Virus record (IMG/VR): IMGVR_UViG_3300030389_002025
Location: 1-34,780 of that record
Direction: 5' to 3' (one strand)
Source: a virus
Length of the DNA: 34,780 nucleotides
Shown: in pieces, positions 14,101 to 34,780 of the stretch
Position numbering within the stretch: the first letter of the stretch is position 1
How the letters are laid out: each line of letters opens with the position of its first letter
Translations under genes and position numbers: made by a program
Notes under the pieces: generated by a model
Seen by the model: the letters and a program-made list of their open reading frames with translations, nothing else
Told to the model about the DNA's origin: nothing
Database searches by the model: none

Positions 14101-14327
14101 TACTGCGTTGCTACCGTCCAATCATCACCTGACAGGATTGTGAGAATTTGTGAGTGTGTGTAAGTGTCTTTTCCGTAAAGGAATCTAGGCTTTGCGCCCT
14201 CGTACTTGACAAAGGTTTGAGTCTCTTCGTTGTTGTATCGAAGAGTTTCGGCGCTAGTTTCAAACACTTGATCAAAGTCAACGCTTGCAACGTCTTCCGC
14301 ACCAATAATACAATATGTTCTACTCAT
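14100..14327 (-). CDS. 75-aa conserved phage protein of unknown function
   Basis: The start MSRTYCIIGAEDVASVDFDQ and the following TSAETLRYNNEETQTFVKYE are typical of a small protein I recall from marine phage structural clusters; no function is known to me. Soluble, slightly acidic, no membrane span. It is joined to the LamG protein upstream by an ATGA overlap and to the next gene by TAATG. Likely a minor virion or tail-assembly component. Confidence 0.7.
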   Translation of the reverse strand: MSRTYCIIGAEDVASVDFDQVFETSAETLRYNNEETQTFVKYEGAKPRFLYGKDTYTHSQILTILSGDDWTVATQ

Positions 14328-15100
14328 GAGGGTACGCTTGAATTAAATGAGGCTCCGTTTGTCAAAGTGCCATTGTTGCCACCACTCCCCTGATCAGTAA
14401 CCGTGCTTCCCGTGCCACCATCATTGTCACCCATGCGCCACCATCCGTTTGGATTCAAGTCAGTCAAATCGGAGGGTACTCCCGAATTGTACAAAGCGGC
14501 GGTAGCGCTCGCTGAAAGCGGAGTTGACCAAATGGCAACCTCGTCAATTAATCCGTCAAATGCTCGGTCACTTCCATTTCTAATTCCAACGTCAAAGCTT
14601 GAAATTGGTATTTTTGCTTTGGATTGATTGCCAACTACTTGACCGTCGTCGTTTTTGACCTGATTGCCATCAAGGTAAATTTCGTAATCTGATCCGGACC
14701 ATCGTACGGCAAGATGATGCCAATCGGTATTAATTGACCCTGAGCTTGAAGAGTAGGCATAAGCCCAATCGCCCGTGTACAAAGTTATTAATTCATTTGT
14801 GACTGCACCTGTGACGTTACCTCCCGTTTGAATACTTCCAAAAGCGCCAAATGTACTGACTCCCGTGAATCCGACCAATGCTTTTGTTAAACTTGATTTA
14901 GTAATTGTTGCATCCGATTTGAACCAAAGGCTCAAGCAACCCAAATCGTAGCTTGAGTTCATCAAAACGTGATCATTTGTACCGTCTAGTGAAACGCTGA
15001 ATAAATTTGATAAGGCTCCACCACCTGCCGCTCGACCACTGGACGTAGCCGACTTTCCGCCTCCGAGTCCGAGGCCAAGCGATATGACGGAATTAGACAT
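14324..15100 (-). CDS. LamG/concanavalin-like lectin domain virion protein
   Basis: A 258-aa protein from the ATG at 15100, overlapping the upstream stop by 8 bp; another ATG lies at 15109. After a Gly/Ser-rich N-terminus, residues about 35-250 show a LamG/ConA jelly-roll: SVSLDGTNDHVLM, SLWFKSD, NTDWHHLAVRWSGSDYEIYL, DGNQVKNDD, then FDGLIDEVAIWSTPLSA and GWWRMGDNDGG. Such domains bind glycans and occur on phage tails and capsids as receptor- or surface-binding decoration. Its place in the adaptor/tail block suggests a virion-exposed adhesin. Which particle part carries it is unknown. Confidence 0.75.
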   Translation of the reverse strand: MSNSVISLGLGLGGGKSATSSGRAAGGGALSNLFSVSLDGTNDHVLMNSSYDLGCLSLWFKSDATITKSSLTKALVGFTGVSTFGAFGSIQTGGNVTGAVTNELITLYTGDWAYAYSSSSGSINTDWHHLAVRWSGSDYEIYLDGNQVKNDDGQVVGNQSKAKIPISSFDVGIRNGSDRAFDGLIDEVAIWSTPLSASATAALYNSGVPSDLTDLNPNGWWRMGDNDGGTGSTVTDQGSGGNNGTLTNGASFNSSVPS

Positions 15101-15347
15101 TATATGCAATCACCGCACCACTCGTAAGCGTGACGCTCGTAAATCTTCCGTACAGTACGGTTCCCGCAGAAAGTGTCGTTGCGTCTTGTCCGGTACAGAT
15201 GTCAGCTAAATTCGTAATGTTCGAAGATTGCGCGGCAAGCACCGTATCCTCGGTCGCTTGTACCGCAAAAAAGTCTCCCGTGTGAGCGGCAGTATCGTTG
15301 ATATACTCTCCGCCGTTAAGTCCTAAACCTCTATATTCTGATGCCAT
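15093..15347 (-). CDS. 84-aa small virion-like protein
   Basis: A low-charge, Thr/Ala/Gly-rich protein (ASEYRGLGLNGGEYINDTAA and later GTVLYGRFTSVTLTSGAVIA), with the strand-turn look of small capsid or head-fibre proteins. It starts 4 bp after the adaptor-like gene and overlaps the LamG gene by 8 bp, so the lectin and this protein may work together. Family not identified; virion role inferred from context. Confidence 0.6.
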   Translation of the reverse strand: MASEYRGLGLNGGEYINDTAAHTGDFFAVQATEDTVLAAQSSNITNLADICTGQDATTLSAGTVLYGRFTSVTLTSGAVIAYNV

Positions 15348-25108: not shown

Positions 25109-25933
25109 CTACACTCCGCACATTCCCTCGCATTCTGCCATGAAGTCCCAAGTGAGTTGCCCCTTTTCCTCATCAGTTCTCAAGTCAACCTCATCTAATG
25201 GCTTGCAAGATTTGTGTAAGAATACAGGCATTTTCATCTTGTCGTACTTTGCATATTTTTCACGAATTTCCTTATCAAACTCAATAGCTTTTTGAAATGC
25301 TTCAGGCTCATTATCCCGTAAGTGCCTCCAATCATCATTATTATGAAACGGACAATAATAACATGCGCTTCGGGGTGGTTCAGGAAAATTATTTTTTCTA
25401 ATCCACTTTTTGCAGTCTACCCTTGTAATTTTTCGCTCGACTAAAGGGTATCGTTTTTTAGACCAAGGAACTCTTGAATCTTTCATTCTCTGCAATTCAT
25501 CCCAAGAAATCCCAACCCACTCCTCTACCTTGCATTCCTTCTCGCCTCGTTTTACGTCAAATTTTTTCTTTATAAATTTAAGTATAGGTTGAATTTTAAA
25601 ATCATTCGTACATTGCCTTCCTATTGCACCTGTCTTGTTGCCATTTGGCAATATTCCAAAAAGAGGTATTTCCCTGGCCATGTAGTGCTTGCCATCACTC
25701 TCTCTCTTAAATGGCTTGAGTGCTTTCTCCGTCAAACTTCCCGCAGTCACTCGATGCACAGGAAACGGCAATTGTTCCTCAAGCCAATTCAAATAATCAT
25801 ATACGCTTGGAGGTTCCGCTTGCGTATCCGCAAATACGGCAAAATCCGGCATCGGAGTAATTTCCCCATGAGCCGCCATTAAAGCCATCGTGGACGATTG
25901 TACGCCCGCGCCAAGTGATAATACGTGCTTCAT
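25109..25933 (-). CDS. PAPS reductase-like PP-loop protein
   Basis: A 274-aa member of the adenine nucleotide alpha-hydrolase (PP-loop) superfamily. The phosphate-binding loop SLGAGVQSSTMAL is at residues 6-18. Two cysteine regions follow (GRQCTNDFKIQPI; RSACYYCPFHNNDDW), and the end ECEGMCGV has two more, suggesting a metal or Fe-S site. True PAPS reductases make sulfite; phage members more likely adenylate or thiolate nucleic acid or act in DNA modification, but the substrate is unknown. ATGA overlap with the upstream 79-aa gene, 4 bp before TerL. Acting on DNA before packaging is a guess. Confidence 0.8.
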   Translation of the reverse strand: MKHVLSLGAGVQSSTMALMAAHGEITPMPDFAVFADTQAEPPSVYDYLNWLEEQLPFPVHRVTAGSLTEKALKPFKRESDGKHYMAREIPLFGILPNGNKTGAIGRQCTNDFKIQPILKFIKKKFDVKRGEKECKVEEWVGISWDELQRMKDSRVPWSKKRYPLVERKITRVDCKKWIRKNNFPEPPRSACYYCPFHNNDDWRHLRDNEPEAFQKAIEFDKEIREKYAKYDKMKMPVFLHKSCKPLDEVDLRTDEEKGQLTWDFMAECEGMCGV

Positions 25934-26169
25934 CCCCTAGCCTGAATCTCCATGCCTACTATGATCGCTTCTTCAAGCGTTTGGACCGGGATTTCGTTAA
26001 CGCTCCAGCCTTGCGTATTCGTTCCAACGTCTCTTGGTCGAATTTCGACGGTGTCGGACCCAACCTTCTCAAGTCGCACGGTACATATTCGCGTACTGAC
26101 AACGGTATTGCTCGACCGTATTTTTTCCAATAAATCGGATTCCATCCCTTCGGCACTTTCATTCTTCAT
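25930..26169 (-). CDS. 79-aa hypothetical protein
   Basis: Starts MKNESAEGMESDLLEKIRSS, with strand-like centre (TVRLEKVGSDTVEIRPRDVG) and VQTLEEAIIVGMEIQARG at the end. Its stop overlaps the PAPS-like ATG (ATGA). A 67-aa frame in another register (25959-26162) also begins with an ATGA overlap; the 79-aa frame is preferred for its alternating hydrophobic pattern and coupling at the downstream end. Function unknown. Confidence 0.6.
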   Translation of the reverse strand: MKNESAEGMESDLLEKIRSSNTVVSTRICTVRLEKVGSDTVEIRPRDVGTNTQGWSVNEIPVQTLEEAIIVGMEIQARG

Positions 26170-26350
26170 GCTTTTTCTTTCTCTCCTCGCACAAATCCTC
26201 GTACAATTCGCAACATCTGCGCTTCAGTCCCAAATTTTCCTCTTCCAACTCTCTATTTCTCAAGACCAATTCGTCCTTCTCCAGGACCAAGCGACCGACC
26301 CATTGGGGCCAACTCTCCATCTTCTTACCCGTGGACTTGTACAGATTCAT
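26159..26350 (-). CDS. 63-aa leucine-zipper-like coiled-coil protein
   Basis: Residues about 18-60 are an uninterrupted charged helix (LVLEKDELVLRNRELEEENL, then GLKRRCCELYEDLCEERKKK) with heptad leucines and three cysteines. ATGA overlap with the upstream gene. It could dimerise another protein of this cluster; no specific function is recognised. Confidence 0.6.
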   Translation of the reverse strand: MNLYKSTGKKMESWPQWVGRLVLEKDELVLRNRELEEENLGLKRRCCELYEDLCEERKKKHEE

Positions 26351-26520
26351 TCGTCCAAATCAATATCGCTGGAAAAATCAATCACGTCGTCGTCAAAATA
26401 TTTATCGACTCCCTTGGTCACGCACTTAATCAATTGAGTATCGTCCAGGTCGCTCTCCTCGCTCCATCTCCTGAGCAACGAAGCAACTTCATTGACGACT
26501 TGTTTACTTGCCCGATCCAT
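26347..26520 (-). CDS. 57-aa acidic hypothetical protein
   Basis: From the ATG at 26520: MDRASKQVVNEVASLLRRWS, then an acidic tail ending in FSSDIDLDE. A longer version from 26610 exists, but would lie wholly inside the preceding gene. Overlaps the upstream gene by 17 bp and the next by ATGA. Function unknown. Confidence 0.55.
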   Translation of the reverse strand: MDRASKQVVNEVASLLRRWSEESDLDDTQLIKCVTKGVDKYFDDDVIDFSSDIDLDE

Positions 26521-26719
26521 AACGCCAATTGGGACGACTCGGCATCCTTCTCTTTTCATCCGTACGGATCGCAATGAGCTTGCCGTTCTTATCGCGGGCA
26601 TAACTGCCATCCTCCGCCCGCAGGAACTCCTTCACCTTATTCTTCGACCAAAAGCGTTCCCACCCGCGCAACGCTTCATTCGGGTTGAGTACGCCCTCAC
26701 TCCTCCTCTTCTTCCTCAT
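26504..26719 (-). CDS. 71-aa basic hypothetical protein
   Basis: Starts MRKKRRSEGVLNPNEALRGW at 26719, continues KNKVKEFLRAEDGSYARDKN and ends NWRYGSGK. A start at 26815 is possible but would run across the acidic 41-aa gene in another frame. The middle (FLRAEDGSYARDKNGKLIAI) has strand-turn-strand character. Function unknown. Confidence 0.55.
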   Translation of the reverse strand: MRKKRRSEGVLNPNEALRGWERFWSKNKVKEFLRAEDGSYARDKNGKLIAIRTDEKRRMPSRPNWRYGSGK

Positions 26720-26822
26720 CCTCAATCTTCCAGTAATGACCGCGCCTTTTTTGCCGATCCTTCCATAACTCCTCGGAGTAGTCGTCGTGCAAAGTTTGCG
26801 CCTCAAATTCTTCAAAGTTCAT
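26697..26822 (-). CDS. 41-aa acidic microprotein
   Basis: Starts MNFEEFEAQTLHDDYSEELW at 26822 in an ATGA overlap with the preceding gene, contains a KDRQKRRGHYW basic/aromatic patch, and ends in six glutamates. The last 23 bp overlap the next gene. Strong ATGA coupling and the biased composition support it. Acidic mini-proteins can mimic DNA, but nothing here proves this. Confidence 0.6.
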   Translation of the reverse strand: MNFEEFEAQTLHDDYSEELWKDRQKRRGHYWKIEDEEEEEE

Positions 26823-27004
26823 TTCATTTCCTTCCATACCAAACCTAGTCCTTTCGTTGAGCATCGAATATTTAATGTCTTTGATGCATATGTAATATAT
26901 TTAAGCAGAATTGCCTTGTGATCCCTACGAATCTTGGAGGATGAACATTGACCGCAAAGAATCTCCAAGGACTCCAAAGCTTTACGAGTGTCAGTTTTGT
27001 TCAT
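26819..27004 (-). CDS. 61-aa hypothetical protein
   Basis: From the ATG at 27004 (ATGA overlap with the HTH gene), rather than 27019. MNKTDTRKALESLEILCGQC, then KAILLKYITYASKTLNIRCS and a basic end. One CxxC. Helical, probably a small soluble protein. Function unknown. Confidence 0.6.
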   Translation of the reverse strand: MNKTDTRKALESLEILCGQCSSSKIRRDHKAILLKYITYASKTLNIRCSTKGLGLVWKEMK

Positions 27005-27423
27005 CGCACAACCTCCCATCCACTCTCCGCCTTCTTCAACTTAACCTTGTCGCCAATGAAGTATTTATTCGGCTTCGCCCGAAACCAACCATGACTACCA
27101 TCCGGAAATTCAACGTCGTACCGATACGGATTCCTAGGCTTCAAATATACCCGTCCAATCAATTCCTCCGCATCCCGAACCCGCTTCTCAACCTCCCGAA
27201 CCGGAGCAACCACGTCCTCAATCATTTCTCCAATCTCTTCCAGCTCTCCAACCCGCGCCCGTTCACCAAGCATTCGATTAATCTCAGCCTCCATCTTCTT
27301 GGTCACGCGGTTGCCGTACACGCAAACCCGCATAGTTGACTCCTTCACTCCAATGCTCCTAGCAAATTCATCCATTGAAACGTCCAGTTTTTCCAACGCC
27401 TCCCTCAATTCCTTCCCATCCAT
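27001..27423 (-). CDS. HTH-containing regulator at strand-switch point
   Basis: A 140-aa protein with an N-terminal helix-turn-helix (residues about 5-48: LREALEKLDVSMDEFARSIG, then VKESTMRVCVYGNRV), a charged helical linker, and a small C-terminal beta domain (VEFPDGSHGWFRAKPNKYFI). It is first in the minus-strand operon and faces the plus-strand terminase-small-like gene across 63 bp, an ideal place for autoregulation of both directions. It could instead be a small terminase-like DNA-recognition protein. Start ATG 27423 is the first available. Confidence 0.6.
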   Translation of the reverse strand: MDGKELREALEKLDVSMDEFARSIGVKESTMRVCVYGNRVTKKMEAEINRMLGERARVGELEEIGEMIEDVVAPVREVEKRVRDAEELIGRVYLKPRNPYRYDVEFPDGSHGWFRAKPNKYFIGDKVKLKKAESGWEVVR

Positions 27424-27486
27424 ATTCGCTCCCTTGTGCAGTTTATCATGGACAAGTCAAACACTTTCCGATAAAAACTTAAAACC

Positions 27487-28005
27487 ATGCCGAGAGGAAT
27501 ACCAAAAGACCTAAAACCCTTCGATGAGAAGCTAAAGGATAAGGTAATCAGGTCAGCCGCCAAGATCGCACAACGCAAATCAAGGCCAAAGACCGAAGCC
27601 GATAATATGGAACTCTCTCCAAAACAGGAAAAATACAGGAATCGAATACACAACGCTCTCCGCTACGGCCTGGAAATGAATGAGCAACAATTCCTAAACG
27701 CAGTACAAAAAAAACTGCAACACATGGTATCCGACTCCCTCAACGATCTACATGATTCAATCGAAAGAATACCACCGCAAAACAAAGCGTATGCGGTGGG
27801 CTTGCTCTTCGACAAACTAATGACCGTATCAGGACGTCCAACCAATATAACCGCGTCCGCAAACGTGAAGCTCGGAGCTTCCGATATGTCACCCGATAAA
27901 GTCCGCTCAATCCTAAAGGGAGCGAAGAAGGCCGCTGAGTCCATACCACCGCAAGCGTCCGAGGATAAAGTCATCGAGGTAAACCCAAGCGAAGACAAAC
28001 GGTAA
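27487..28005 (+). CDS. Candidate terminase small subunit-like protein
   Basis: A 172-aa basic, helical protein. It starts MPRGIPKDLKPFDEKLKDKV, has a central helical pair (NEQQFLNAVQKKLQHMVSDS, LNDLHDSIERIPPQNKAYAV) and GLLFDKLMTVSGRPTNITAS, a 'DKLxxLxGxPT' stretch I recall in small terminase or related DNA-binding phage proteins. It is the only packaging candidate for a TerS and is on the opposite strand from TerL. Upstream is a 63-bp divergent region; a terminator follows at 28145. The terminase identity is tentative. Confidence 0.4.
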   Translation: MPRGIPKDLKPFDEKLKDKVIRSAAKIAQRKSRPKTEADNMELSPKQEKYRNRIHNALRYGLEMNEQQFLNAVQKKLQHMVSDSLNDLHDSIERIPPQNKAYAVGLLFDKLMTVSGRPTNITASANVKLGASDMSPDKVRSILKGAKKAAESIPPQASEDKVIEVNPSEDKR

Positions 28006-28144
28006 CCTCCGACGTTTTCCCGAACTTTCCGCAAGGGCTGATGAGGTCTGCGAGTAGGGCGTTATAGCGAAAAATTTCGTGGGGGGTGTGATGATAATAT
28101 ATAAATTAACGCGAGAGGTGCCGCACCCCCGCCCCCCCGCCGGC

Positions 28145-28170
28145 GACGTGCGCGACGTGTGCGTCTTTTT
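28145..28170 (+). terminator. Terminator of terminase-small-like gene
   Basis: GACGTGCGC (28145-28153), loop GAC, GTGTGCGTC (28157-28165) give a 9-bp RNA stem with G-U pairs, followed by five T (28166-28170). Located 140 bp after the stop of the plus-strand gene. Confidence 0.65.
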
Positions 28171-28321
28171 ATGCGGATCGCGGTTCAACTTCGCACAATC
28201 TGTTTTATGTCTAATTACTTTTGTTGATTATCAAGCATTTACGCAAAACTCGCATTGCGTTTGTCACGAATCCAATAAAATTTTGACGATTCGCCGGCAA
28301 GCTTGCGCAATCGAATCACAA

Positions 28322-28351
28322 CGCATCAACGCATCATGATATATTGATGCG
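28322..28351. repeat. CGCATCA direct and inverted repeats
   Basis: CGCATCA at 28322-28328 and 28330-28336, with the inverse TGATGCG at 28345-28351. The second and third copies can form a 7-bp hairpin or a dyad protein-binding site. The third copy overlaps the -35 box of a candidate promoter. Confidence 0.7.
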
Positions 28352-28373
28352 ATTCGCGCATACGTATTATAAA
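28344..28373 (+). promoter_or_regulatory. Candidate plus-strand promoter for accessory block
   Basis: TTGATG (28344-28349), 18 bp, TATAAA (28368-28373). It points into the accessory operon beginning at 28641. The GC-rich spacer and overlap with the CGCATCA dyad suggest regulation. Confidence 0.5.
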
Positions 28374-28408
28374 ATGGATGCATTGGGGCGAAATGAATCT
28401 TCCCTATC

Positions 28409-28445
28409 ATTTCCAAATATGGAATCTAGATTTCCAAATATGGAA
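28409..28445. promoter_or_regulatory. Two identical operator-like dyads 21 bp apart
   Basis: The 16-mer ATTTCCAAATATGGAA occurs at 28409-28424 and again at 28430-28445. Each copy is a TTCCA/TGGAA inverted repeat with a 4-bp centre. The 21-bp period equals two DNA turns, so proteins bound at both sites would face the same side. They lie just downstream of the candidate promoter, where a repressor could act. Confidence 0.7.
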
Positions 28446-28499
28446 GCGTGATTACCAGGCAATGAATGCCATGCTTTTACACTTCATTTGATTTTACCG

Positions 28500-28540
28500 G
28501 AGCAACCCGCAAATTTTTTTTGCTCAGTGTGCAAGCGGGT
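28500..28540 (+). ncRNA. Possible H-type pseudoknot in accessory-operon leader
   Basis: GAGCAA (28500-28505) can pair with TTGCTC (28520-28525), while the adjacent ACCCGC (28505-28510) can pair with GCGGGT (28535-28540). The arms cross in H-type pseudoknot order, with a T-rich loop. They share one base, so the full pairs are mutually exclusive at position 28505. This lies 100-140 bases upstream of the first accessory gene. Confidence 0.35.
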
Positions 28541-28640
28541 AAGATCAGTATTTTACAATATTGACTTGACAAGCTTAACCTGATTTGCTTTTGTGAGTTT
28601 GTCGGGGCAATTAAGCCTCGGCGGAAAAGAAAGGAAACTA

Positions 28641-28823
28641 ATGACACTTGACATTTACTGGGGTAACAAAACTTACACCGCATATGTTTACGAGGGTAAG
28701 CATATCGTAACAATGAATTTTGGTGGATACTCATCTGAAGCAAAACTGAGAGAGTTCTTGAAAAGTTGTGGTATCAAAGTGCATAAAATTGAATTGGATA
28801 AACTGACAAAGAAAGGAAACTAA
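28641..28823 (+). CDS. 60-aa hypothetical protein, first accessory gene
   Basis: From the ATG at 28641 behind AAAGAAAGGAAACTA (28626-28640); an earlier start at 28593 lacks such a site. MTLDIYWGNKTYTAYVYEGK, then FGGYSSEAKLREFLKSCGIK: a beta-beta-alpha look. The stop codon lies in the same leader motif for the next gene (AAAGAAAGGAAACTAATC). Function unknown. Confidence 0.65.
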   Translation: MTLDIYWGNKTYTAYVYEGKHIVTMNFGGYSSEAKLREFLKSCGIKVHKIELDKLTKKGN

Positions 28824-28825
28824 TC

Positions 28826-29185
28826 ATGGGATTTTTCAGCTGGAATACACAAGACACGGATAGGAGCATAGCAAACTCTTACTCAAACGAGGATACCTTC
28901 AAGGTTATCATGACGGACGACAAAGGTAATCAATGGGAAGAAACTAATTACGAAGGATACGGAGAATTTGGGGGCAAGGATTACTTTGTTCTGCTTGATG
29001 AAATGAATGGCGGAACTGGTGATCGGAGTCGTGGCATTGACCTTTATTACAATAAAAGTGATGAAGTGAAATATCCGAGTTTGAGCGAGTGTGGAGCTTA
29101 CTATTTCAAAAAACCCGAAGACTGCGAAGCGCAAGGATATTTCTATGATGGGGATAATGAGGATGAATGGGATGACTGGGAATAG
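28826..29185 (+). CDS. MGFFSW-family phage protein
   Basis: A 119-aa acidic protein with MGFFSWNTQDTDRSIANSYS, NYEGYGEFGGKDYFVLLDEM, then RGIDLYYNKSDEVKYPSLSE and a very acidic end. I recall this family as common in diverse phages; its function is unknown. Conserved aromatic and Gly residues suggest a compact binding domain. Standard leader AAAGAAAGGAAACTAATC precedes the ATG. Confidence 0.75.
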   Translation: MGFFSWNTQDTDRSIANSYSNEDTFKVIMTDDKGNQWEETNYEGYGEFGGKDYFVLLDEMNGGTGDRSRGIDLYYNKSDEVKYPSLSECGAYYFKKPEDCEAQGYFYDGDNEDEWDDWE

Positions 29186-29227
29186 ACTATACAAATTCAA
29201 ATAACAAAAAAAGAAAGGAAACTAACT

Positions 29228-29482
29228 ATGAAATATATTGAATCAAATTCGGATGATTTTGTGAAATGTCCAACACCCGCACACTTGCAACGCAATGCAT
29301 GGGGGGGGTTTGCAAACCCCAAAGCGCTTGGCATGGATGCAATGGGCTATGGAAGAAAAATCCGGACCATCTGGAAAGTTGAACATGAGGGTAAGCTTTA
29401 CCGCGTTTTTGCCACGTGTATTTCCAATAGCGCAAGCCATTGGATTTTGGCAAAGGGTGAAAAGCTTTTCATAAGAAACTAA
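29228..29482 (+). CDS. 84-aa hypothetical protein
   Basis: KYIESNSDDFVKCPTPAHLQ, NAWGGFANPKALGMDAMGYG, then RTIWKVEHEGKLYRVFATCI and SASHWILAKGEKLFIRN. The second half looks like a small antiparallel beta domain. A leader AAAAGAAAGGAAACTAACT precedes the ATG. A run of eight G bases (about 29302-29309) lies inside the gene. No family is recognised. Confidence 0.6.
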   Translation: MKYIESNSDDFVKCPTPAHLQRNAWGGFANPKALGMDAMGYGRKIRTIWKVEHEGKLYRVFATCISNSASHWILAKGEKLFIRN

Positions 29483-29503
29483 TACAAAGGAAAGGAACTA
29501 ACA

Positions 29504-29860
29504 ATGAGAAAACAAGACATCATTGATGCCTTAGAATCACGCAAGACGCGGTCCGCATGGTCACGCGGCGTAAACAATTACGCGATTGATCTAGTCGATG
29601 GATTAGATGATTGCGCAAACCTAACAAAGGAAAAACTCCTAAACGGCGCAAGTAATTGGACCGAATACAGTTTCGGCGGATGCGCTTTTATTTATGATGC
29701 GGATATTGCGGAAGCGCTTTGTACGCCATCCGAGTTAAAAGCAAAACGTGGTGGTGATTTGCAACCAAACTCGAATGAGACTTGGTTGGACGTTCAGGCA
29801 AGAGCTTTGTTTCAAGCTTCCATTCTAATTCTTAAAATAGCAAAGAAGGTTGACGGATGA
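29504..29860 (+). CDS. 118-aa conserved phage/prophage protein of unknown function
   Basis: RKQDIIDALESRKTRSAWSR, then NLTKEKLLNGASNWTEYSFG, GCAFIYDADIAEALCTPSEL and ETWLDVQARALFQASILIL. I recall highly similar proteins in gut and aquatic phages, function unknown. Soluble helical. ATGA overlap with the GP88-like gene downstream, and AAAGGAAAGGAACTAACA leader upstream. Confidence 0.7.
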   Translation: MRKQDIIDALESRKTRSAWSRGVNNYAIDLVDGLDDCANLTKEKLLNGASNWTEYSFGGCAFIYDADIAEALCTPSELKAKRGGDLQPNSNETWLDVQARALFQASILILKIAKKVDG

Positions 29861-30555
29861 AAATACTCACAACTGGAAACGCCAAAATCATAAAGGGCGA
29901 AGCGTACGGATTCATGACGCGAGGTATTCACTTTGCGCCCGCAACGTTAAGCGGATACAACGTTTGCGCGTGGGCCTCGCAGGGATGCGCGATGGCGTGT
30001 TTGAATACAAGCGGACGCGGGCGGATGCAATCCATTCAAGACTCGCGCGTTGCCAAGACTCGCGCTTTTTTTGCGGACAAGGAAGGATTCCTTTGCAACT
30101 TGGTAAAAGAGATCGAAAGCGCCGTAAAAAGCGCAGATCGGAAAGGATTGCGTCCATGCTTTCGCTTGAATTTAACAAGCGATTTGCCATGGGAAAATAT
30201 CCGATGCCATGACGGACAGAACGTTTTTGAAAAATTTCCGCAAGTCCAGTTTTATGATTATACCAAAGGCTTCAAACGTATGGAAAAGTACTTGAACGGG
30301 AAAATGCCCAAAAATTATCACTTAACGTTTTCTCGGTCTGAATCGAACGACAAGCATGCGCGCTTGGTTTTGGCCATGGGTGGAAACGTGGCGGTTGTCT
30401 TTCGTAATCACTTACCTAGTCAATGGGAAAATAGAACCGTAATCGATGGTGATGAATCCGATTTGCGATTCAAAGACCCGCATGGCGTTGTCGTTGGCCT
30501 TGTTGAAAAGGGTGATGCCAAAAAGGATGAATCCGGATTTGTAGTGAATCCATAA
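29857..30555 (+). CDS. GP88-like phage protein with CX6CX3C cluster
   Basis: A 232-aa protein resembling the phage 'gene product 88' family: MTRGIHFAPATLSGYNVCAW, ASQGCAMACLNTSGRGRM with C37, C44 and C48, then LRPCFRLNLTSDLPWENIRC, FYDYTKGFKRMEKYLNG, YHLTFSRSESN and VAVVFRNHLP. The cysteine cluster could hold a metal or an Fe-S site, but no enzyme activity is known to me. ATGA overlap with the upstream 118-aa gene. It is the largest gene of the accessory block. Confidence 0.7.
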   Translation: MKILTTGNAKIIKGEAYGFMTRGIHFAPATLSGYNVCAWASQGCAMACLNTSGRGRMQSIQDSRVAKTRAFFADKEGFLCNLVKEIESAVKSADRKGLRPCFRLNLTSDLPWENIRCHDGQNVFEKFPQVQFYDYTKGFKRMEKYLNGKMPKNYHLTFSRSESNDKHARLVLAMGGNVAVVFRNHLPSQWENRTVIDGDESDLRFKDPHGVVVGLVEKGDAKKDESGFVVNP

Positions 30556-30574
30556 GTAAAGGAGAAAGAAAAAT

Positions 30575-30664
30575 ATGAACTATGATTTGTTAGTAATGAC
30601 GCTCCCTTGGCTTTTCCCGCTTTGGGTGATGCTTGCGGATTTATTCGGGGGGGATGATTTATGA
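30575..30664 (+). CDS. 29-aa hydrophobic micropeptide
   Basis: ATG at 30575 behind AAAGGAGAAAGAAAAAT. MNYDLLVMTLPWLFPLWVML then ADLFGGDDL: one hydrophobic span and an acidic end. Its TGA overlaps the next ATG (ATGA). Good ribosome site and coupling support it. Probable membrane peptide, perhaps inhibiting a host membrane protein; unproven. Confidence 0.6.
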   Translation: MNYDLLVMTLPWLFPLWVMLADLFGGDDL

Positions 30665-30894
30665 TTCACGCAAAAGACTTATTCCCCATCGCGATGGATC
30701 GTATCCACGATCTGATGGAGCGTGGCCACACAAACCGAACCGCAAAGGCGCAAGCATTACTAGATGCGTTTGAAGAGGGAGAGCGGAAAGGCGAGAAGCG
30801 TGGGGGACGCAAGACGAGCGTTCGCGGAGCGAACCGCGTAAAGAGAAACGCGGATCGCGTAGGCGCGAGGCAAATGGAATTACCACTAACATAA
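30661..30894 (+). CDS. Small protein ending in a sliding-clamp-binding-like motif
   Basis: A 77-aa protein. N-terminal helices (MIHAKDLFPIAMDRIHDLME, then AKAQALLDAFEEGERKGEKR), a basic linker (RKTSVRGANRVKRNADRV), and a C-terminus QMELPLT. QMELPL fits the hexapeptide by which bacterial proteins such as Hda (QLSLPL) bind the beta sliding clamp. A flexible basic tether with such a tip suggests a host clamp binder; binding is untested. ATGA overlap with the 29-aa peptide. Confidence 0.6.
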   Translation: MIHAKDLFPIAMDRIHDLMERGHTNRTAKAQALLDAFEEGERKGEKRGGRKTSVRGANRVKRNADRVGARQMELPLT

Positions 30895-30911
30895 AATAAG
30901 AAAGGAATACT

Positions 30912-31160
30912 ATGAACGATACAAAAGAGAAACACGCCACATTCACGCCCGGACCGTGGGTGATGGTACAGGAAGAACTTGGTATTGCTTTATCAAAAGC
31001 AGAAGGCAATCTTAACCATCTAGCGCGAGAATCCAATCAATCTGATTGGGGGGGCTCAATAACTCAAGGAGAAGCGATTCTTAATGCTTTAAATGCAGTA
31101 CAACAAGCTCGCAAAGCATGGCAAGCAGTTTTACACGAAGAAAGAAAAGGCAAGCAATGA
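30912..31160 (+). CDS. 82-aa hypothetical protein
   Basis: MNDTKEKHATFTPGPWVMVQ, then EGNLNHLARESNQSDWGGSI and a helical end (ALNAVQQARKAWQAVLHEER). The opening ATFTPGPW is common at the start of phage proteins of unknown function. Leader AAATAAGAAAGGAATACT. Stop overlaps the next ATG (ATGA). Confidence 0.6.
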   Translation: MNDTKEKHATFTPGPWVMVQEELGIALSKAEGNLNHLARESNQSDWGGSITQGEAILNALNAVQQARKAWQAVLHEERKGKQ

Positions 31161-31210
31161 TCACGACCCAATCAAGAAAAAAGTTACTACTCACCGAAAC
31201 GGATGACTAA
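31157..31210 (+). CDS. Possible 17-aa coupling peptide
   Basis: ATG at 31157 overlaps the previous TGA; the frame gives MITTQSRKKLLLTETDD and ends at TAA 31208-31210, overlapping the next gene by 8 bp (ATGACTAA). It may serve only to carry ribosomes to the 43-aa membrane gene. Evidence is positional. Confidence 0.3.
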   Translation: MITTQSRKKLLLTETDD

Positions 31211-31334
31211 GCCAAACGAATCCGACACCATTGCCCGCATGTGCGTTGGCCTGATTGTCTTCCTGGCAATCCGGCTCGCGCCCAAAGCGGTCGAATGGTG
31301 GCAGAAGAGAAATGAGAAAGGAGAAATGCAATGA
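31203..31334 (+). CDS. 43-aa single-span membrane peptide
   Basis: MTKPNESDTIARMCVGLIVF, then LAIRLAPKAVEWWQKRNEKG and EMQ. One hydrophobic span at about 13-24 followed by an amphipathic aromatic/basic helix. Its last codons form the ribosome site for the next gene, ending in an ATGA overlap. Function unknown. Confidence 0.6.
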   Translation: MTKPNESDTIARMCVGLIVFLAIRLAPKAVEWWQKRNEKGEMQ

Positions 31335-31684
31335 AGCTTTTAGATCGAGTTTTAAATGAAACCACAGAGCAAGGTGAAGCATTAAGTGTCTACATTAAGA
31401 AAGCAAAGCATACCTTGGAGGAATGGAACGAGAAAGAGGTAAATCAATGGGAGCTTGTTTTTCATTGGAAAGATGTACCAAACCCAAACTTTGGATATAG
31501 TTATTACATTGATACAATCATGGATGAATACTGGGGTAATAAAGGTGGTTTATGCCTTAATGGACATACCTATGATTACGCTTCAGTAAGTGAAGAAGTA
31601 ATGGATAGAGTAAGAGCATTTATTCAAGAGTTTGTAGATGCAAATGACATTTTACTTGAAAAGGAGAAAGGAGAAATGCAATGA
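31331..31684 (+). CDS. 117-aa hypothetical protein
   Basis: MKLLDRVLNETTEQGEALSV, NQWELVFHWKDVPNPNFGYS, IDTIMDEYWGNKGGLCLNGH and a long acidic helix. Ends EKEKGEMQ, the same terminal residues as the preceding 43-aa protein, because the same AAAGGAGAAATGCA ribosome site is reused. Alpha/beta soluble protein, no family recognised. Confidence 0.6.
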   Translation: MKLLDRVLNETTEQGEALSVYIKKAKHTLEEWNEKEVNQWELVFHWKDVPNPNFGYSYYIDTIMDEYWGNKGGLCLNGHTYDYASVSEEVMDRVRAFIQEFVDANDILLEKEKGEMQ

Positions 31685-31977
31685 GTGAAGAATACAACTT
31701 TAGTGCAATACAAATGGGCATTGCTTTGCTTGCTACCTCTGCGGGTTGTAAAGTTTCAATGATCACAATTGAAGATTTACCCAAAAGGTTTACCAAAAGC
31801 AGTCCTGTAGGACTCGCAGTTTACGGCTATGAAGATTACTTTGTGGTCCACATGGACGGGATTGTCGAGTTTGTGCCTTCAGGGGATAGGACGGAAGAAA
31901 CAGACGATTGGATTATATATCTCGCAAAATTAATAAGAAATTTTAGGACAAAGAATAAAGAGCGCATAACTCTTTAA
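31681..31977 (+). CDS. 98-aa hypothetical protein, last of accessory block
   Basis: MSEEYNFSAIQMGIALLATS, then KVSMITIEDLPKRFTKSSPV, GYEDYFVVHMDGIVEFVPSG and a basic end (RNFRTKNKERITL). Small alpha/beta fold. ATGA overlap upstream. It is convergent with the helicase gene, and no clear terminator is visible in the 120 bp between (31978-32097): only a weak bulged hairpin (about 32027-32066). Confidence 0.6.
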   Translation: MSEEYNFSAIQMGIALLATSAGCKVSMITIEDLPKRFTKSSPVGLAVYGYEDYFVVHMDGIVEFVPSGDRTEETDDWIIYLAKLIRNFRTKNKERITL

Positions 31978-32097
31978 CCCCATACCCCCTCAAAAAAGCG
32001 TTTTGATTGCAAACATGAGTCTTTACCCTCGTCAGCTACAAAAACTCTTTCTGAGGGCTTGTAGGGCATCTTAAACGGCATTATAGGCTTTCACCCT

Positions 32098-33360
32098 TCA
32101 CCCATATGGCTTGTCATTGTTAAGTCGCCCCTCAACGTGGGCCGAAAATCGGCCAAGTCTCTTGTCGAACTCAAGGGTAGTCATCCCCTGCTCGCCGTTG
32201 CGGTTCTTCGCGACCTCGCAATTGATCAAATCCTCATCATCTTTGTGGGGAGAAAGGAGCAAAACCGCATCCGCATCTTGTTCGATGCTTCCGGACTCCC
32301 GAAGATCGGACAAGGCGGGCTTTCGCTTTTGCACTTCAAGCGCTCGGTTGAGTTGAGAAAGGGCGAGGACCGAAGTTTGGTATTCCAACGCCAAAGTTTT
32401 ACAACATCGAGAAATCTCGGAAACTTCTTGGGTTCTCGACTCATAGCCTTTCGCGGAGAGTAGTTGCAAATAATCCACGACTACCAATCCCAGTTCGCCT
32501 TCCATGCGTTGTTGAGCGAGAAATGCGCGAAAACTTTCCAGCGTTGCCTCATGGTCGTCCTTGAAGGTAATTGGCCATTGCTTGATGCGTTGGGTGGTTT
32601 CCGCGAGTCTCCTCTTCGCAATATGGTCCATTGAATCCTTCATCGTGGGGCGCGGGACTCCGCTCACGTTTGTGAGCAAACGTCCTGAGCATTCGCTTGC
32701 CGTCATCTCAAGACTGGCGTATGAGGTTCGCTTCCCAAACTTCGCGGCTTCATGTGTGAAATGAATCGCAAGGGCGGACTTTCCAATTCCCGGTCTTGCG
32801 GCTATGACGTACAAACATCCTTCGCGAAACCCGCCGTTGAGCAAACCGTCCAACCCTTTGAAGCCCGTGGATATTGCGGAGACTCCGCCCGCATCGATTG
32901 CCAGGTACTCGGCTTGCGCTTCTGCGACTGCGTCACGCACGTGAGTCTGTCCTTTTCTTTTCGAGAAAGCCTTTGCCACGCGGGTGGTGAATGCGGATGC
33001 AACTTCCTCAGCGGTTTTATTGGGATCGCGAACGTCGTCCTGAGCGTAGAGTATTGCTTTCTCCACCGACTTGGCGTTTCTTTGCTCGATTACCTGATCG
33101 ACGTATCTGTCGATTTGTCCGCCTCCGTATTGCGCGGATATCTCCGTAACCTCGTTTGCGAGGTCAGGAAGTTCGATCATCACGTCAACCTCGTTAACGT
33201 CGGGCGAATGTTTCGCGATGGCTTTAAATATCTGTTGGCGGGTGGGCGAAGTAAAGTCGTCTTCGGTGAGATGCTCCAATGCGATGGCCGAGGATCGGCC
33301 CGATTCATCGCGCATGGAAGCTGAGAGAACCGCAATCTCCGCTAATGAGAAATCAATCAC
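32098..33360 (-). CDS. dnaB: DnaB-type replicative helicase
   Basis: A 420-aa hexameric helicase. N-terminal DnaB domain (IALEHLTEDDFTSPTRQQIF and on to ~135). RecA-like C-domain with Walker A ARPGIGKS (about 188-195), LEMTASEC (H1a), Walker B VVVDYLQLLS (about 293-302), the ALSQLNRALE loop, LSDLRESGSIEQDADAVLLL and NRNGEQG. It unwinds DNA 5'-3' at the phage fork. Fused primase is absent. It follows the RHH/DnaT-like gene by an ATGA overlap, so this pair is the replication-initiation module. Confidence 0.92.
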   Translation of the reverse strand: MIDFSLAEIAVLSASMRDESGRSSAIALEHLTEDDFTSPTRQQIFKAIAKHSPDVNEVDVMIELPDLANEVTEISAQYGGGQIDRYVDQVIEQRNAKSVEKAILYAQDDVRDPNKTAEEVASAFTTRVAKAFSKRKGQTHVRDAVAEAQAEYLAIDAGGVSAISTGFKGLDGLLNGGFREGCLYVIAARPGIGKSALAIHFTHEAAKFGKRTSYASLEMTASECSGRLLTNVSGVPRPTMKDSMDHIAKRRLAETTQRIKQWPITFKDDHEATLESFRAFLAQQRMEGELGLVVVDYLQLLSAKGYESRTQEVSEISRCCKTLALEYQTSVLALSQLNRALEVQKRKPALSDLRESGSIEQDADAVLLLSPHKDDEDLINCEVAKNRNGEQGMTTLEFDKRLGRFSAHVEGRLNNDKPYG

Positions 33361-33827
33361 ACTCGTTTAATGCCTTCCCATTCGTCCACCTCCTTTTTGG
33401 GTAAGCGCTCCTTTATCCAAGTCCTGCAAGCGTTTCGAAAGGTAGCGTTCCAATCCGCCTTCTCGTGACCGTTGGACTTCGCCCAGTCCATGAATATCTC
33501 AAGAGCTTGCTGATGATCGATTCCGAACTCTTCGCTTATGGTTTCCGGTGGTGAAAAGTTTTCCGGAATCGTGGAGTGTGTTTCCTTCTCTGATTTTCCA
33601 ATTTTTTTGTTTTTGTTTTGTATACTATATATATTAATATTCTCGGAGAGAATATCCGCGCGCGTGAGGGATTTTACCAAAAACCTCCCGAGAACCTCCG
33701 TAATATAGCCGCAAATTGTGGCAGATGGATTTGTGCCGTAAATTTTACAATACTCCTCTAAAATATCACGATGCCACTTTGGTATTCTTAGCCTGATTTC
33801 TACCTTTTCAAATCTTTCGTCAGTCAT
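33357..33827 (-). CDS. RHH/DnaT-like replication protein, probable helicase loader
   Basis: A 156-aa protein. Residues about 8-50 (VEIRLRIPKWHRDILEEYCK, then NPSATICGYITEVLGRFLV) read as a ribbon-helix-helix DNA-binding domain; after a Lys/Ser linker, residues about 98-147 (ISEEFGIDHQQALEIFMDWA, then GHEKADWNATFRNACRTWIK) match the C-terminal part of DnaT/replication-protein-O-like primosome factors. It could mark the origin and recruit DnaB, encoded directly downstream. Its first codons and upstream region are repeated at the left end of the window. Confidence 0.65.
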   Translation of the reverse strand: MTDERFEKVEIRLRIPKWHRDILEEYCKIYGTNPSATICGYITEVLGRFLVKSLTRADILSENINIYSIQNKNKKIGKSEKETHSTIPENFSPPETISEEFGIDHQQALEIFMDWAKSNGHEKADWNATFRNACRTWIKERLPKKEVDEWEGIKRV

Positions 33828-33912
33828 TGTAAATGTTTGTAAGTATGGAAATGATAAGCCAAATGAAGGTCGCTGAACTAGCGATGAAAATGACTGTAAA
33901 TATTAGATATTC
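33815..33912. repeat. Right copy of 98-bp exact direct repeat
   Basis: Identical to bases 1-98. It contains the start of the RHH/DnaT-like gene and its 5' noncoding region with the TCGCT/AGCGA hairpin (33870-33884). Beyond it (leftward on the minus strand of the circle) the two window ends differ: here a 105-aa gene is present, at the left end it is absent. Confidence 0.95.
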
Positions 33913-33923
33913 GAAGATTTCCC

Positions 33924-34241
33924 TCATGGTTTTATTTCAAAGAATTTGAGGGTCCATTCATAAATCTTTAGGCAATCGTTGGCTCGATCTTCTCCGACTT
34001 GCCATAGTGATTGGAAAGCTTCTTTGGGGGTGGAGTGACTCTTTGCAAACCTTATGAAATCCGCAATAGATACGGTTATGCATCCGCATTCTTTGCATGG
34101 TTTTTTTCTAAATTTAAAATGACGTAAAATTGCGTTGACTGCGGGTTTTGGAATTCTCCAACGTTCACCGTCAACTGTTATTACTTGACCATCCAAATAT
34201 TTAAATGGCATTGTTTTTAATTCTTTTAGCGTCTTTTTCAT
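33924..34241 (-). CDS. 105-aa hypothetical gene present only in right allele
   Basis: MKKTLKELKTMPFKYLDGQV, GERWRIPKPAVNAILRHFKF, a CKECGC cysteine cluster, then IADFIRFAKSHSTPKEAFQS and WQVGEDRANDCLKIYEWTL. Its ATG makes an ATGA overlap with the regulator stop, and its own TGA sits in the same CTCATG context that ends the regulator at the left end, so the gene is a clean insertion of about 314 bp. Function unknown; Cys cluster may bind metal. Confidence 0.65.
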   Translation of the reverse strand: MKKTLKELKTMPFKYLDGQVITVDGERWRIPKPAVNAILRHFKFRKKPCKECGCITVSIADFIRFAKSHSTPKEAFQSLWQVGEDRANDCLKIYEWTLKFFEIKP

Positions 34242-34780
34242 GCCGTTACCAATGCTTTTGCAAGTGCGGGAAACTTTCCGCTGAATGCTTTTGGGTTTTT
34301 GGTTTCTACGAGTCTACGTTCTTCAAGGTCTTCGCCCAAGTATATTGTAAGTCCTTCTTTGGATAAAGTCCCATCAAGATCAAGCTTTTCATTAAACTCA
34401 TGTATTTTCTTGTCTAGATTCTGCGAAAGTTGCCCAACTCTACTTGCAGTCAAATCATGCTTTTTCGCTATCGCACTCATCGGATGCCCTTCAACCCTGT
34501 TCATCAAAAGAATATCAATCTCAATCAAATCGAGTTTATCGAAAAGCATTTGCAAGATTTCCTTGTTTTCGAGATTCAATGACTGATTATTTGGAAGCAA
34601 ACGATCTGACTCAACTTCTTGATAATAAGTCATGCTCTTTACTTTTGAGGTAAACATCTCAGGCCATTCGCTTATTACGTCCACAATCATTCCGGCATCC
34701 AAAAACGCCAACTCGATCTTCTTGACCTCTCCCTCGGTAGGTCTGCGTTTGAGATTTATGATCTCACCGATTTGCGATTG
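34238..34780 (-). CDS. XRE HTH / sigma-like regulator, right allele (5' partial)
   Basis: Same gene as 110-754, aligned residue for residue from QSQIGEIINLKRRPTEGEVK to the stop, entering the window at about residue 36. The sigma-region-4-like part is nearly identical. Differences cluster in the C-terminal stretch (DLDGTLSKEGLTIYLGEDLE versus the left copy) and include one 3-bp indel. The end is KALVTA. The N-terminus lies beyond the window. Best seen as a strain variant of one locus; a true paralogue is possible. Confidence 0.8.
   Translation of the reverse strand, partial: QSQIGEIINLKRRPTEGEVKKIELAFLDAGMIVDVISEWPEMFTSKVKSMTYYQEVESDRLLPNNQSLNLENKEILQMLFDKLDLIEIDILLMNRVEGHPMSAIAKKHDLTASRVGQLSQNLDKKIHEFNEKLDLDGTLSKEGLTIYLGEDLEERRLVETKNPKAFSGKFPALAKALVTA

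Follow-up and report, generated by a model that had tools for sequence, protein, structure and literature searches.

Comparison of related viral sequences supports a fixed core of four small genes, carrying fast-changing optional genes, in a plus-strand island of the IMG/VR virus record IMGVR_UViG_3300030389_002025. The complete record, 34,780 bases long, was analysed and is hereafter called the window; the island lies at its positions 28641-31977. The putative core encodes a membrane micropeptide, a basic protein (gF), a protein with a conserved N-terminus (gG) and a second membrane micropeptide (mem43). gF ends in a beta-clamp-type motif, and we put at even the chance that the island is an early-type rightward operon whose core protein gF docks on the host sliding clamp.

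Anatomy and conserved core of the island

The island holds 11 plus-strand genes between minus-strand genes, at a coding fraction of 0.957, and its genes are adjacent or overlap by 4 bases. Outside it the identified genes (capsid, terminase-like, exonuclease, SSB-like and DnaB helicase) all lie on the minus strand, and the sign of the GC skew flips at about 28 kb. An exact AGAAAGGA ribosome site precedes 6 of the 11 island genes, and this octamer occurs seven times on the plus strand of the window and never on the minus strand. Open reading frames of at least 40 amino acids led by a Shine-Dalgarno site numbered eight on the plus strand of the stretch and none on the minus strand; in 200 block-shuffled copies they averaged 0.83 and numbered 5 at most. 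The original prediction had described a dozen genes isolated on the opposite strand. Eleven were counted; the plus-strand setting amid minus-strand genes and the dense coding (96%) hold, and the isolation is qualified by one further plus-strand gene at 27487-28005.

Relatives were sampled from viral contigs by a DNA element of the control region (Table 1), without the use of any island gene, which yielded 71 loci. Core and cargo counts cover the 40 loci with at least 4.2 kb downstream of the element. The first membrane micropeptide and gF were each present in 38 of these islands, gG in 35 and mem43 in 34, and the DnaB-type helicase gene that forms the convergent boundary was present in 39. The order micropeptide-gF-gG-mem43-DnaB was complete in 28/40; the last two core genes were swapped in one island, and the remainder missed at least one gene. 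A stricter first search had found gF in 35/40 and mem43 in 32/40 islands, and extra gF copies (L116, L086, L075), added by motif and reading, raised the former from 35 to 38.

Among the cargo, GP88 was found in 7 of the 40 islands, gJ in 3, and gI and the MGFFSW protein in 1 each. GP88 and the MGFFSW protein, the first to be named in the original prediction, are optional in islands sampled by the DNA element, and the conserved part consists of genes that the same prediction had also named, the membrane micropeptides and a clamp-motif protein, which is the 30661-30894 product ending in QMELPLT. Turnover of cargo in 19 islands amounted to 85 clusters, 54 of them singletons, as delimited by a rough gene caller that admits spurious frames.

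Two candidate roles for GP88 were rejected. As an island anchor it had been seemingly universal among the first relatives; these overstated it because they had been found through GP88. As the enzyme of an enzyme-substrate pair with the micropeptide it had the peptide just downstream in 18/18 distinct GP88 loci (GP88 at least 75% identical; 12 by script, 6 by reading), but the peptide was also present in 31/33 islands without GP88. Across the 71 loci the micropeptide has 50 distinct versions with a median length of 31 amino acids, and control queries against the minus strand of the same stretches gave 0 matches. Its window version has a weak PHROG match to a membrane protein (E 0.014), and neither micropeptide matched PHROG or Pfam over the cut-off. 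Relatives of gG also bear the downstream peptide NARLIAAAPE; the C-terminus of the window gG differs.

The clamp-type tail of gF and readings of the island

The unique gF versions are 51-77 residues long with net charges of +3 to +14. Their N-terminus (mostly M-x-H-A) and last residues are kept, and the middle is basic and drifting. A beta-clamp-type hexapeptide, QMELPL in the window, ends 50 of 51 unique versions, 45 of which follow the strict pattern Q[LM]x[LF]x[LF]; the six others comprise three QTELQF, one QALIQF, one QLQLQL with a longer tail and one truncated copy. A separate scan by the N-terminal peptide alone retrieved 55 loci with 45 distinct complete proteins, many of the loci overlapping the earlier set. 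The terminal motif was present in 44 of the 45 (40 strict), and the 45th, from L143, has QLTFQL inside a natural read-through fusion of gF and gG. All 55 loci carried a minus-strand DnaB gene, mem43 or gG nearby. At the DNA level, the motif was found in 51/52 gF gene copies in 26 spellings. The same pattern ended 21 of 3772 other open reading frames, several of which are gF copies that had escaped the filter. One gF compared with the sequences of solved structures gave no match. A clamp-like tail (QMTLNF) also ends a protein encoded on the minus strand of L079 (4501-5577), in which a canonical CxxxCxxC motif resembles that of radical S-adenosylmethionine (radical-SAM) enzymes.

According to published work (PMC11139829), the canonical clamp-binding motif reads Q-phi-x-[L/M]-x-[F/L] and frequently lies in a C-terminal tail; the window tail QMELPL fits it fully. 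Across gF copies the Gln is invariant, positions 2, 4 and 6 are mostly hydrophobic, and positions 3 and 5 are free; the motif stands at or near the C-terminus, after the basic variable linker. In the record, no match was found to the DnaN N-domain (PF00712), Pol A or Pol III alpha, each of whose controls matched in 10/14 genomes; most likely, therefore, replication of the phage DNA relies on the host replicase. Docking of gF on the host clamp would be the simplest reading of these sequence data. The C-terminal hexapeptide of gF would occupy the peptide-binding groove of DnaN, the sliding clamp of the host, and the basic linker would bind DNA or a partner. In this way gF would either recruit host clamps to phage forks or shut host clients out from them; either effect on replication is one that we infer.

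Several observations weigh against an early operon with a clamp-docking gF. Phe stands at motif position 4, outside the canonical [L/M], in 30/44 tails of the N-terminal sample and 9/51 of the other set, and position 2 of the N-terminal sample is Thr in three tails and Ala in one. Two of the 40 islands (L078 and L111) have no recognisable gF. The loci are related, some near-identical, and the counts are of loci and not of independent events. The search for other polymerase families was confined to Pfam scans of selected proteins. If gF did no more than block the groove, it would also impede the replicase on which the phage itself depends. A sigma-70 scan of 27300-32300 found no plus-strand promoter, with 2 sites as compared to 8.5 in shuffles.

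That the QxxLxL tail only resembles a clamp motif and has another role, such as a degradation tag, a non-DnaN partner or a membrane contact, seems quite improbable to us: small hydrophobic tails serve several purposes, and the Phe at position 4 in 30/44 tails would suit such a role, but the invariant Gln and the alternation of kept and free positions match the published clamp motif, and the window tail is fully canonical. If the tail does bind the clamp, gF might be a phage replication adaptor and not an agent of host takeover, its N-terminal helix holding a phage factor (for instance DnaB) and its tail bringing the host clamp to phage forks. We regard this as a tentative candidate. DnaB is a nearly fixed neighbour, and the phage carries helicase, SSB-like and exonuclease genes, yet has no match to the polymerase and clamp families searched; against this, gF is encoded in an operon opposite to those three genes, and no partner of its N-terminus is known. 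An adaptor and a shut-off of the host are not separable by sequence. The fast cargo turnover would agree with an island that is mainly an anti-defence cassette, its cargo blocking host immunity and its core merely maintaining the locus. This appears rather unlikely, as the core genes are nearly as frequent as the helicase boundary and ten proteins had no PADLOC match, in a library of defence and not of anti-defence proteins. We consider it highly improbable that the products of the four core genes work together as a single minimal machine of about 230 residues in which gF would capture the host clamp and the two micropeptides would fix the replisome at the membrane, so that host replication is turned off and a phage replication site is built, with cargo answering host-specific defences.

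In the islands that carry it, GP88 could be the functional centre: an enzyme of radical-SAM type by which a molecule of the host or the phage would be modified early in infection. We place this possibility somewhat below even. The window protein belongs to PF17338 (172.2 bits, cut-off 24.4, profile positions 3-229 of 230), and three cysteines after the first strand (C37, C44 and C48) are common to 20 sequences. Its AlphaFold model scores 89 in the predicted local distance difference test (pLDDT), with cysteine-loop residues 41-60 at 63-64, and 0.88 in predicted template modelling, and the modelled fold is similar to that of radical-SAM enzymes. Of 50 VIA-align rows, 41 are radical-SAM enzymes as classed by title and general knowledge, among them all of the first 33, which span Z 5.9 to 4.6; these 33 include spore photoproduct lyase, pyruvate formate-lyase activase, viperin, QueE, RlmN and others. 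Against this enzyme reading, the cysteine spacing is C37-x6-C44-x3-C48 in the window and Cx7Cx3C in L021 and L034, instead of the canonical radical-SAM Cx3Cx2C, and GP88 is therefore not filed as a member. The best Z of 5.9 lies in a range that the tool calls common, and no row reached Z 8; the three best Foldseek rows are DgpB-C chains, which are not radical-SAM, and none fell below E 0.001. A search of the sequences of solved structures returned no radical-SAM entry, and GP88 occurs in the minority of islands counted above.

Timing, control region and neighbouring features

The original prediction had seen in the island the look of early host-modifying genes. The anatomy fits this in its strand switch, conserved control region, short diverse genes and variable cargo around a fixed core, and expression of the island may be early, by indirect analogy with relatives of one cargo gene, GP88. 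GP88 relatives occur in 269 of 50,697 phage records, 240 of which are mycobacteriophages. Gene 88 of the cluster A phage BellusTerra, the penultimate one at the right end, encodes GP88, and right-arm genes 35-89 of L5 are described as strongly expressed at 30 min (PMC5712189). In HMO-2011 GP88 is gp1. Among the 11 Pelagibacter records that match GP88, six have it at most 1.5 kb from their start and five do not; nor is it near the start in the jumbo phages among the matches listed. In pelagiphage HTVC134P it stands upstream of the genes for MarR, an integrase and an RNA polymerase; genes of these three kinds are described as early in another T7-like pelagiphage, HTVC022P (PMC12753301), which is not among the GP88-bearing Pelagibacter records.

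The predicted control region of the island's own is borne out at 28006-28640 (635 bases), which is conserved among the window, L002, L004 and L020 and has no convincing gene inside. Part of it was matched by nhmmer in 20/52 sequences searched (the window and 19 relatives), and the 32 without a match (L019 and L021-L051) are other phages whose only shared feature is GP88 or MGFFSW. Its best-kept part is the element of about 78 bases used for sampling, which is recognised even where the flanks of relatives differ and which is a candidate origin, regulatory or packaging site. The element sits at the strand switch and the GC-skew minimum. A cos site or genome end was considered and rejected: the element was matched in 9 of 13 long records and its positions in these 9 are scattered, which argues against a genome end. 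Two copies of the TTCCAAATATGGAA repeat are present in the window and in L003 and L004; L020 has a full and a degraded copy, and L002 a single copy that is one base short. The TTGAC of the possible -35 is retained in six close relatives compared. In the leader hairpin 91% of cells are paired across 7 sequences, with covariation no better than in shuffles, which is weak. In relatives including L062 and L070 an HNH nuclease (PF13395, with an N-terminal helix-turn-helix) or a PD-(D/E)XK nuclease (PF11645) often lies between the 27487-28005 gene and the element; the window has neither in this slot.

Table 1. Features of the island and its surroundings in the window
Feature	Position	Strand	Remarks
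172-aa (amino acid) gene	27487..28005	+	upstream of control region, outside island; recurs beside island in relatives
Conserved DNA element	28062..28139	+	20 aligned copies including window; G-run can pair with C-run
Terminator-like stem, then TTTTT	28145..28165	+	consensus scan
Tandem TTCCAAATATGGAA repeats	28411..28445	+	operator-like; copies at 28411 and 28432
TTGACA, possible -35	28566..28571	+	by reading; no good -10; absent from sigma-70 scan output
Leader hairpin, 8 pairs	28601..28622	+	precedes first ribosome site
Orphan, 60 aa	28641..28823	+	family not found; no relative among 50 loci compared
MGFFSW family protein, 119 aa	28826..29185	+	optional cargo
Protein, 84 aa	29228..29482	+	C-terminal half matches phrog_3436 (unknown function), E 3.6e-13; no relative among 50 loci compared
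Near-orphan, 118 aa	29504..29860	+	no convincing family (Pfam, PHROG); none among 50 loci
GP88 family protein	29857..30555	+	PF17338, phrog_1617; optional cargo
Membrane micropeptide, 29 aa	30575..30664	+	single-pass; core
gF, 77-aa basic protein	30661..30894	+	core; ends QMELPLT, beta-clamp-type motif
gG	30912..31160	+	core; TPGPW N-terminus
mem43, 43-aa membrane micropeptide	31203..31334	+	core; no ribosome site seen
gI, 117 aa	31331..31684	+	cargo; also in L057
gJ, 98 aa	31681..31977	+	cargo
DnaB-type replicative helicase	32098..33360	-	PF03796, 1.7e-62; convergent island boundary

Relatives of the MGFFSW protein were found at 32 viral loci, on contigs of up to 289 kb, with 18 invariant positions in 23 aligned sequences and no Pfam match over the cut-off. 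With its model (pLDDT 84), no PDB chain reached Z 2 among 235 aligned and no Foldseek row an E below 1; the protein may still have a known fold. The 29504-29860 product had a match in 1 of the 55 loci of the gF N-terminal sample. NCBIfam and PADLOC gave no match for ten proteins (nine island proteins and the 27487-28005 product, the micropeptides being left out). The 27487-28005 product also had no match in Pfam or PHROG, and it is small-terminase-like only by eye. Elsewhere on the minus strand the window encodes a protein with a Laminin_G_3 (concanavalin A-like) domain at 14324-15109, perhaps for receptor binding, and a phosphoadenosine phosphosulfate reductase-like gene at 25109-25933 (phrog_424, 3.3e-51). 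Rfam at gathering scores and tRNA scans found nothing, and positions 26000-34780 had no megablast match in the phage collection.

Positions 1-98 of the window are repeated exactly at 33815-33912. Beyond the repeat the copies, compared by eye, diverge into variants of the same helix-turn-helix gene (110-754 and 34238-34780), with an extra gene of 105 amino acids at 33924-34241. The record is probably a circular genome of about 33.8 kb with a strain-variant tail.

Host and comparison with known systems

Relatives of the large terminase (TerL) were found in an Opitutia metagenome-assembled genome (MAG), at 84% and on a contig that also carries the island, and in a Verrucomicrobiota MAG, at 80%. 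Weaker relatives were found in an Alphaproteobacteria MAG (43%) and an Opitutae MAG (30%). In the class of the first MAG TerL matched 4/286 genomes, itself included, and in the class of the Alphaproteobacteria MAG 6/289 including itself, the other five matches being short and weak. Loci L057, L058 and L060 are binned with Opitutae/Verrucomicrobiota MAGs. A verrucomicrobial host, resting on this binning, is plausible; to our knowledge few phages of Verrucomicrobiota are known.

gF represents a family of very small proteins in which conservation is limited to the N-terminal part and a clamp-type tail; its place in the operon is fixed in a group of uncultured phages that may be linked to Verrucomicrobiota. 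The sliding clamp is an antibacterial target, and peptide inhibitors of it are under study (PMC11139829). If gF does dock there, it may seize host DNA replication. The separation of core from cargo offers an approach to such islands, in which the genes with recognisable family names proved to be cargo.

The island resembles the T7-type early region in its small, putatively early genes. GP88 also occurs in the right arm of cluster A mycobacteriophages. From both of these the island differs by a fixed core of its own, made up of micropeptides and the clamp-tail protein. The GP88 family (PF17338/phrog_1617) is of unknown function, and its likeness to radical-SAM enzymes is one of predicted fold alone. 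None of the titles in our literature searches concerned the function of GP88, named PF17338 or DUF5131, or addressed a phage clamp-tail family or the MGFFSW protein; most papers were judged by title only. We know of few phage proteins directed at the sliding clamp. Hda, Pol IV and Pol V likewise carry a short Q-x-x-L-x-L peptide in their tails, and in Pol II and Pol IV the clamp motif is C-terminal, as in gF (PMC11139829). Unlike Hda, Pol IV and Pol V, gF is a phage-borne protein of 51-77 amino acids with no domain recognised, and its binding is a prediction from sequence. Like the proposed gF, GP168 of phage Twort is a phage protein directed at the sliding clamp; by its description it binds the DNA channel of the clamp and inhibits clamp loading (PMC11139829), whereas gF would dock in the peptide groove.

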